DNA from: Candidatus Schekmanbacteria bacterium
GTDB lineage: Bacteria > CSSED10-310 > JACPHN01
Assembly (NCBI GenBank): GCA_016188575.1
Contig: JACPHN010000146.1
Location: 1-46,268, forward strand
Direction of reading: 5' to 3'
DNA: 46,268 nucleotides
Each line of letters starts with the position of its first letter. Positions within the stretch are counted from its first letter, which is position 1. The position numbers and the translations under genes are program-made. Below the pieces are notes generated by a model. It saw only the letters and a list, made by a program, of their open reading frames with translations. It was not told the DNA's origin and searched no databases. Positions 10,942 to 12,877 of the stretch are shown here, piece after piece.

Positions 10942-11769
10942 TCACCGGCCCAACTCCGCGCGGAGGTCAGCCGCCAGGACCTCGCAGGTCAGCCTCACCT
11001 GGTCCGCGTCCATGATGGGCTGCGTTGCCCGCGCCGCCATCACGGCGCCTTTGCTGCCTCGGTTCGCGAACAGGTCGTCGAACAGCTCGAGCGCCCGCGA
11101 GCCGGCGGCGGCGCTTCGCGGGTCGACCAGGATCGCACGCAGGCGCCGCCCGAGGTCCCCGACGGGGATCGCCTGCAGCACGCGAAGCACGTCGAGCGCG
11201 TCCTTGTCGTTCGCCCTGGCCGAGCCGCGGCGCTCGTGAATCTTGAACAGCTTGGCGACCAGGAGTGCCCCCGGTCCGGCGACCTTGGCTCGCACGACGC
11301 GCCCGTCGACCTCCGGTTCAAGCGAAGCGATGTCATGCTCGGCCTGGTCGACGAGGACCCCTTCGAGGCCGTCGACCTTCCGGGCGGCGTGGACGCCATG
11401 GCCAGTCAGCCGCGCGGCGCGTCGTCCCGAGCCGGAGCTGACGGTCGCCGGCATGAGGATATCGACTCGGACGTCGATGTCGAGGGCCTCAGAGGTCTGG
11501 CGCCGGGTCTTCCAGATGCCGATGGTGCTCGTCGAGCCGTAGAAGCCGGCACCCTCGAGCGCCTGCTCGAGCGGCGGGATCTCGCCGAGCAACGCAGGGT
11601 CGAGGACCAGGTCGGCGTCCGTGGTGTACTCGGCGACGCCGAGCTCCGCCGCGCCGGTGTGCAGGTAGATCGCCTGGGCGCCGACCAGGATGGTGGCCTT
11701 GCGGTGGTCACCGAGGGCCTCGAGCGCGTCGAGCAGCACCCGCCGCGCGATCACGTACAGCTCATCCAC
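10942..11769 (-). CDS. AbiEii-like nucleotidyltransferase (toxin of a type IV-like toxin-antitoxin pair)
   Basis: A 275-residue protein of the minimal-nucleotidyltransferase type. The nucleotide-binding loop VGAQAIYLHTG is at residues 29-39, and the metal-binding acidic pair lies in YTTDADLVLD (about residues 48-57). A later basic segment (AKVAGPGALLVAKLFKIHER, then KDKDAL-like NDKDALDVLRVL) matches the lysine-rich helix of AbiEii proteins. AbiEii toxins transfer nucleotides, probably to tRNA, and stop growth reversibly. Its ATG overlaps the 3' end of the upstream antitoxin-like gene by 8 bases, the usual AbiE gene order. The first loop reads VGAQ rather than the commoner GGTA/GSLA type, so substrate range may differ. 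Confidence 0.78.
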   Translation of the reverse strand: MDELYVIARRVLLDALEALGDHRKATILVGAQAIYLHTGAAELGVAEYTTDADLVLDPALLGEIPPLEQALEGAGFYGSTSTIGIWKTRRQTSEALDIDVRVDILMPATVSSGSGRRAARLTGHGVHAARKVDGLEGVLVDQAEHDIASLEPEVDGRVVRAKVAGPGALLVAKLFKIHERRGSARANDKDALDVLRVLQAIPVGDLGRRLRAILVDPRSAAAGSRALELFDDLFANRGSKGAVMAARATQPIMDADQVRLTCEVLAADLRAELGR

Positions 11770-12781
11770 GCCACATCCTCTCGTGCGCCGCCATCCAGTC
11801 CATCAGCGCCTCTGCCTCGGCGGGGGAACGGCCGGGGCCCGAGAGCAGGTCCGCAGCGACAACCGGCAAAGCGGCGCACCGCAGGCCGTCGCGCTCGTCC
11901 ACGCCCTCGAACACCGCTTCGTCCTCTGGCTGAAGCAACACGACGTTGGCGCCCGCCTCGGCCGCTCTCAGACCGAGCGTGTGGGCGGCGCCCGCCGAAT
12001 CCTCGACGTACACGGAGGCGAGCCGCGTCGGGGCAGCCGGCGCGATGGCCGCGGCGACCGCGCTGCCGGTCGCGGCGTAGCGAAAGTCGGCTGCTCGGAG
12101 GCCTTCCCAGAGGCTCTTCAGCCCCCGCGGCGCGAACCAGGTACTCGCGTCCGTCCGACTCTCCAGCGGCGCCTCCTCGGACCACCGCAGGAGCAGCTTG
12201 CGCCAATCGACGCGCTCGACTCGCCCGCGCGATGTGCGGTCGAGCAGCGCCTCGCGATCCAGCATGCCGAGCAGCCGCGACACGTACCCGGGGTCGGTGT
12301 CTGCCGCGGCCGCCAGCTCGCGCACGCCGATCGGCTGCGTGAAGCGGGCGAGGGCACACACCACGCGACCCGCCTTGGCGCCGCGCAGGCTGAGGCGTCG
12401 CTCCTCGGGCCAGGGGTTCGCGTCTGCACCGCTTGTCACGATGTACAGACCCGGCTCGTCGACGACGATGCGCACGTTGCCGGTCTGGTCGACGAAGCTG
12501 GCCCCCTCTGCCTCGAGGACCTCCCGGACGCGCCGAGAGAAATAGGGCGCGGCAACGAGGAGCGGTCGTTCGGCCGGGATCTGTCGCGCCGAACGCGGGT
12601 CGGGGCGTGAGAGCGCGGACACCGGCATCTCGCCCGAACGACCCTCCTTCGAGGTGATGCGAAGGCGGGGCGGCCGAGACGTTGCTTCGACTCGCTCCAC
12701 GACCCAGCCGGGCGGGAGGCGCTCCTGCACGACACGGGTCACGCCAGCGACGATGTTGTCCGAGACGCTCATGTTGCACAC
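11762..12781 (-). CDS. AbiEi-like antitoxin and transcriptional regulator
   Basis: A 339-residue protein (GTG start at 12781; ATG at 12772 is an alternative). Residues 70-118 (VREVLEAEGASFVDQTGNVR) match the D-x-x-GN segment common to AbiEi-family regulators. Residues about 138-190 form a winged helix (PIGVRELAAAADTDPGYVSR as the recognition region). AbiEi proteins neutralise AbiEii without tight binding and repress their own promoter through repeated sites. The gene is coupled to the nucleotidyltransferase downstream, and seven phased half-sites surround its promoter, which strongly supports autoregulation. Confidence 0.75.
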   Translation of the reverse strand: MCNMSVSDNIVAGVTRVVQERLPPGWVVERVEATSRPPRLRITSKEGRSGEMPVSALSRPDPRSARQIPAERPLLVAAPYFSRRVREVLEAEGASFVDQTGNVRIVVDEPGLYIVTSGADANPWPEERRLSLRGAKAGRVVCALARFTQPIGVRELAAAADTDPGYVSRLLGMLDREALLDRTSRGRVERVDWRKLLLRWSEEAPLESRTDASTWFAPRGLKSLWEGLRAADFRYAATGSAVAAAIAPAAPTRLASVYVEDSAGAAHTLGLRAAEAGANVVLLQPEDEAVFEGVDERDGLRCAALPVVAADLLSGPGRSPAEAEALMDWMAAHERMWRG

Positions 12782-12877
12782 TCATGGCAACGGGCCGGAT
12801 TGGGGCAACGACCCGGGCTTTCGTTGCCTATGATAGCTCAGTTGCCCGTATCGTGCAACAAGTCACATTCGGACAAC
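12773..12877. promoter_or_regulatory. Phased GTTGC/GCAAC operator array over the AbiE-like promoter
   Basis: Six exact pentamers occur at 12773 (GTTGC), 12787 (GCAAC), 12805 (GCAAC), 12823 (GTTGC), 12841 (GTTGC) and 12855 (GCAAC), with a one-mismatch copy ACAAC at 12873. Successive starts are 14, 18, 18, 18, 14 and 18 bases apart. Two identical 19-bp palindromes GTTGC-N9-GCAAC result (12773-12791, 12841-12859), and the middle pair extends to GGCAACGA-N9-TCGTTGCC (12804-12828). The array spans the promoter and the start codon of the AbiEi-like gene, as expected of a cooperative repressor operator. Confidence 0.7.
12830..12858 (-). promoter_or_regulatory. Promoter of the AbiE-like operon
   Basis: On the - strand TTGCAC (12858-12853), a 17-base spacer and TATCAT (12835-12830) form a sigma70-like promoter. 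The -35 box is itself part of one GCAAC half-site and another half-site sits in the spacer, so repressor binding would directly block polymerase. Confidence 0.6.

Follow-up and report, generated by a model that had tools for sequence, protein, structure and literature searches.

The window, that is, the whole stretch of DNA analysed, comprises the 46,268 nt of contig JACPHN010000146.1 (assembly GCA_016188575.1) and carries, on its minus strand, a two-gene operon preceded by an array of short repeats (Table 1). The regulator gene lies upstream of a nucleotidyltransferase gene, the two ORFs overlapping by 8 nt, and the operon is flanked by atpD-like and sigma-54 activator genes. The gene pair is conserved in Myxococcota relatives and on plasmids of Streptomyces, Rhodococcus and Variovorax.

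Table 1. Coordinates of the operon, its putative promoter and the repeat units within the window.
Feature	Position	Strand	Description
Regulator / putative antitoxin	11762..12772	-	336 aa from ATG; alpha/beta ~1-115, winged helix ~127-200, nucleotidyltransferase-like ~215-336
Partner nucleotidyltransferase / putative toxin	10942..11769	-	275 aa; MenT/AbiEii fold
Operator unit A	12823..12877	-	GTTGT-N13-GTTGC-N9-GCAAC-N13-GCAAC
Operator unit B	12755..12809	-	GTTGC-N13-GTTGC-N9-GCAAC-N13-ACAAC
Eighth half-site ACAAC	12755..12759	-	within regulator ORF, codons 5-6, encodes part of Asp-Asn; + strand GTTGT
Putative -35 hexamer TTGCAC	12853..12858	-	identical, same place in 6/6 close-clade loci (window included)
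Putative -10 hexamer TATCAT	12830..12835	-	17 bp after -35

The operon and its putative promoter

The fold of the partner is that of the MenT nucleotidyltransferases, with VIA Z scores of 13.6 to MenT1 (rmsd 3.3, 177 aligned residues), 12.3 to TglT/MenT3 and 11.0 to MenT4, and a Foldseek E value of 1e-4 to Rv1045. Among its Asp motifs, D103 is invariant and D51 and D53 are nearly so. In Pfam, the only match is to NTP_transf_8, at an E value of 2.8e-4 that falls below the cut-off, and AbiEii (PF08843) is not matched; among the distant relatives, three have partners that score above the AbiEii cut-off.

The AlphaFold model of the regulator has a pLDDT of 92. Its C-terminal domain is nucleotidyltransferase-like, with a Z of 8.6 to MenT1 that lies near background, and Foldseek returned no match at E <= 0.001, so that the structural likeness holds at the domain level only, many winged-helix entries being at similar Z; the AbiEi structure 6y8q is absent among the structural matches listed. 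The protein matches none of the AbiEi Pfam models, and it is not among the 17 of 48 family members that match AbiEi_2 (PF09952; best E 7e-12). In the N-terminal alpha/beta domain (12428-12772, residues about 1-115), D95, G98 and N99 are invariant across a 45-row alignment. The preliminary description had placed an operator array ahead of an AbiE-like toxin-antitoxin operon, and the analysis supports this.

The regulator and the toxin are 76% and about 81% identical, respectively, to Myxococcota loci, although the host itself falls in a different and very small group, where 8 genomes were searched and no other one carries the operon. High identity to Myxococcota together with absence from those other genomes makes horizontal transfer likely. 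In one locus (L008; contig G133:C216, 53520-53675 and 55469-56470), a gene of the AbiEi_4 type and a close relative of the regulator are about 2 kb apart, which suggests clustering of toxin-antitoxin genes.

The promoter hexamers TTGCAC and TATCAT were assigned from their position and their conservation in relatives. The putative -35 is weak (3 of 6 consensus matches), and no promoter emerged from a consensus scan in which the -35 was set more strictly; a recognisable -10 stands 17 bp downstream of the -35 in most close-clade loci. Transcription would start near 12823. Unit A overlaps TTGCAC-N17-TATCAT, an inner half-site overlapping the -35 and the fourth half-site following the -10. Unit B spans the 5′ leader and the start codon, its third half-site abutting the ATG and its fourth lying inside the regulator ORF. 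The array thus covers both the promoter and the regulator start codon, as originally proposed.

A doubled four-half-site unit

The array had been described as seven GTTGC/GCAAC pentamers, six of them exact, spaced by 14, 18, 18, 18, 14 and 18 bp, and recomputation returned identical positions: on the plus strand, exact pentamers begin at 12773, 12787, 12805, 12823, 12841 and 12855, and the seventh, ACAAC, at 12873. An eighth half-site, 18 bp from its neighbour, had been overlooked. With this eighth site in place the array forms a full dyad, reading on the gene strand, from 12877 to 12755, GTTGT-18-GTTGC-14-GCAAC-18-GCAAC-18-GTTGC-18-GTTGC-14-GCAAC-18-ACAAC. The window has two occurrences of GTTGC-N9-GCAAC, at 12773 and 12841, against 0.03 expected from shuffles; the arms and the 68-bp distance agree with the earlier account of two identical palindromes, except that the 9-bp spacers differ.

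The array consists of two tandem copies of one 55-bp palindrome, whose four half-sites (>18> 14 <18<) lie at 0, 18, 32 and 50: a 23-bp direct pair, a 9-bp gap and an inverted 23-bp pair, with 13 bp between units. When the eight-site comb was slid over the whole window, all eight sites matched at one position and at most four of eight at every other. With the geometry fixed at 18/14/18, both real units score 19/20, a value that a single one of 2000 dinucleotide-shuffled versions of the region attained; when 575 geometries were allowed, none of 200 shuffles attained the observed 20/20. A search of the 9.2-Mb genome that tolerated up to 2 mismatches found exactly two four-site units, both in this array, and a reversed control of the unit returned no hit at the same tolerance. 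The unit as a genome-wide regulon box was rejected on this result.

The preliminary description had also suggested looking for the same spacing upstream of homologous operons, and it is found there: at least one unit precedes 32 of the 36 regulators at >=34% identity, and two units precede 9 of the 36. The four loci devoid of a full unit are L033, for which too little upstream DNA is available, L036, which has three of four sites, and the Rhodococcus homologs L003 and L004, in which no unit was seen. In the nearest relatives (L007-L010 and L017; regulators 75-78% identical), both units are present, some sites having decayed. In a scan blind to the letters that covered 288 geometries in 36 homologs, (17,14) and (18,14) ranked top, and conservation reaches 0.89-0.91 in half-sites versus 0.66-0.71 in spacers. 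Distant relatives (25-33% identity, 37 loci) favour 18 with 11-13, with a mean score of 17.8 versus 14.7 +/- 0.3 over all geometries; their half-sites, at 18/13/18, are longer and diverse (GTTTCCTA, CTTGACTA, CTTCACTA and others). A Streptomyces plasmid homolog carries CTTGC four times at 17-14-17, and the half-site of a Variovorax plasmid homolog is GTTTC. In 30 AbiEi_4 loci, drawn from the phylum to which most relatives belong, the unit geometry was not found, and a general trait of AbiEi winged-helix loci was rejected on that ground; the comparison was made excluding the AbiEi_2 loci L113, L118, L119 and L121, whose start codons are unsure.

Besides the units at the gene start, L014 has a further complete 18/14/18 unit about 230 bp upstream of the regulator start, and L017 a further one of three or four sites about 246 bp upstream; each could possibly be a third unit or mark a divergent promoter.

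Co-change with the regulator and alternative readings

The half-sites fall into classes by clade, namely GTTGY in the window's clade, at 18/14/18, GTTCC in a second and GTTTC in a third (17/14/17). In the GTTGC clade, the inner half-sites read tGTTGCnC and the outer ones GTTGyC. The letter switch in the GTTCC and GTTTC clades usually affects all four half-sites. In the 45-row alignment, the residue most informative on half-site class is residue 6, followed by 163, 133 and 160. Residue 6, which is encoded by the half-site inside the ORF, differs between the three classes (N, G or T), and the 17/18 change puts that half-site in another reading frame; taken together, these two changes indicate that it is the DNA, not the protein, that is kept. 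The top non-operator columns switch with class as Y/T,S/V (163), K,Q/A/G (133) and D,N/P/S (160). In the AlphaFold model, all three residues belong to the winged helix, 160 and 163 being at the start of the recognition helix (161-173). As each GTTNC class is a single clade, with two changes on the tree, this co-change of protein and DNA is not independent of shared ancestry. The outlier is the Variovorax protein, which has G133 and S160 as in the GTTTC clade, but T163.

These data bear on three other readings of the array. The preliminary description had favoured one continuous seven-site ladder of alternating orientation, cooperatively wrapped by several AbiEi molecules or bound by an oligomer with two binding geometries; on such a reading the fixed 18-bp steps across the whole array would matter. 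The inter-unit step in the window is itself 18, so that eight sites form one dyad, and two-unit relatives mostly hold an offset of 65-72 bp. However, this step is 19, 15, 21, 21, 17 and 22 in the nearest relatives (L002/L007, for example, read 18, 14, 18, 19, 18, 14, 18), while the 18, 14, 18 steps within units are constant; some pairs of units are offset by 102 or 193 bp, and numerous operons contain a single unit. Because the inter-unit distance drifts over 15-22 bp, the metronome between units is incidental, and the central inverted repeat of opposite sense noted earlier is merely the junction between copies; likewise, since several relatives carry a single unit, the doubling is not essential. 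The continuous ladder was rejected on the variable inter-unit distance and is considered very improbable. A still smaller probability is given to a device acting in RNA, with leader hairpins controlling translation or attenuation of the operon. Unit B does extend across the start codon and the leader, and as RNA the full 131 nt have a good fold (z -4.5), but only about 74 nt of it are expected to be transcribed, and these fold no better than shuffles (z 0.31), which is evidence against an RNA device. Hairpins, moreover, do not need direct repeats, and the half-site changes are concerted across all four sites rather than pairwise compensatory.

That the sites are recognised by a nucleoid protein or a host regulator with no relation to the operon is judged just as remote. 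Lone pentamers are indeed frequent (GTTGC is found 112 times in the window, versus about 102 expected), and the exact unit pattern is present in 22 viral contigs, in no case next to a homolog. Yet the unit is absent elsewhere in the genome; in several phyla and on plasmids alike it goes with this gene family, and which letters it has depends on the clade of the regulator. A protein search of the viral contigs with the regulator found nothing, and phage carriers were rejected, as none of the 22 contigs with the pattern has it adjoining a homolog. The exact GTTGY 18/14/18 units in viral contigs include L138:11252-11306, L136:324-378, L132:12993-13047, L143:4809-4863 and L131:755-809, and some lie outside long ORFs. 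Those among the 22 that lie in Gln/Val-rich coding DNA are probably due to chance; the viral GTTGY units may more generally be chance occurrences or operators of other repressors.

A probable variant of AbiE-type autoregulation

Very probably, then, the array serves a two-gene AbiE/MenAT-like toxin-antitoxin operon as its autoregulatory operator. The elementary unit of this operator is the 55-bp palindrome of four half-sites, to which the protein encoded by the upstream gene would bind through its winged helices. We infer binding from the conservation of the unit and its co-change with winged-helix residues. In the corresponding model, unit A, over the -35 and -10, would block RNA polymerase, while unit B, over the start codon and the leader, would reinforce repression or form a roadblock. 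The regulator would occupy both units and keep the promoter shut until the antitoxin is depleted; when antitoxin is scarce, the sites would empty and the operon be expressed, by analogy with the AbiE precedent. The steps 14+18, 14+17 or 13+18 sum to 31-32 bp, or about three helical turns, which would place alternate half-sites on one face of the DNA. This arrangement suggests two interleaved dimers, or four monomers, per unit, and eight subunits on the whole array.

Among the closest known systems is the AbiE type IV toxin-antitoxin operon of Streptococcus agalactiae, whose AbiEi binds a pair of 23-bp repeats, separated by 3 bp, in its own promoter (PMC3985639, PMC7319586). The present operon resembles that system in having the antitoxin gene first and the nucleotidyltransferase toxin gene second, as well as a winged-helix regulator with repeats over the -35/-10 of its own promoter (PMC3985639, PMC7319586); the S. 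agalactiae repeat TGTTGCTTTTA-N27-TAAAAGCAACA also starts with TGTTGC/GCAACA arms, as here (PMC3985639, PMC7319586). It differs in its doubled 18/14/18 unit, which extends into coding sequence, and in the extra N-terminal domain of its regulator. Known AbiE operators are not confined to a pair of inverted repeats, contrary to the earlier statement: Rv2827c of M. tuberculosis binds four 23-bp repeats in its own promoter, with negative cooperativity (PMC7319586). The Rv2827c-Rv2826c (MenA4-MenT4) locus likewise has two inverted-repeat pairs, over about 130 bp, before the antitoxin gene (PMC7319586), and MenT4 is among the folds that the partner resembles. Its gaps, however, are 13 bp within pairs and 4 bp between them, as opposed to 9 and 13 bp here; its gene-proximal pair overlaps the promoter, a position taken here by the upstream pair, and its repeats all lie upstream of the start codon, whereas the last half-site here is inside the ORF (PMC7319586). 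The published abiE layouts (3-bp gap, or 13/4-bp gaps) are therefore not matched in spacing or repeat position (PMC3985639, PMC7319586), and no description of a four-half-site operator for this regulator family was found in the literature collection searched. Given the shared features of AbiE-like autoregulation and the different layout, the locus is called a new variant of AbiE-type autoregulation. PDLC04368 PDC-M05A, from the candidate defence system PDC-M05 of PADLOC, is matched by 14 of the 48 regulators in the family (best E 2.2e-6), among which the one in the window does not figure; the family may belong to that uncharacterised candidate system.

A broader proposal, plausible but held tentatively and a little short of probable, is that this AbiEi-type branch uses a fixed "four-clamp" operator whose spacing is kept across phyla, while its letters switch from clade to clade in step with two or three residues of the recognition helix, so that a natural set of mutually orthogonal repressor-operator pairs results. 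Where the operator is doubled, the two interleaved dimers (or four monomers) of each unit would stack as an octamer; the half-site inside the ORF would dictate N-terminal amino acids of the repressor. Apart from this proposal, the conserved unit provides a rule that can be tested in a large family of toxin-antitoxin regulators, most of them unannotated, spread over Myxococcota, the host's small phylum, and actinomycete and Variovorax plasmids. The operator would be findable from its spacing alone and the family could be annotated as autoregulated; base 4 of the half-site and residues 133/160/163 would give a handle on a specificity swap, and the locus would stand as a case of operator DNA constraining the N-terminal sequence of a protein.
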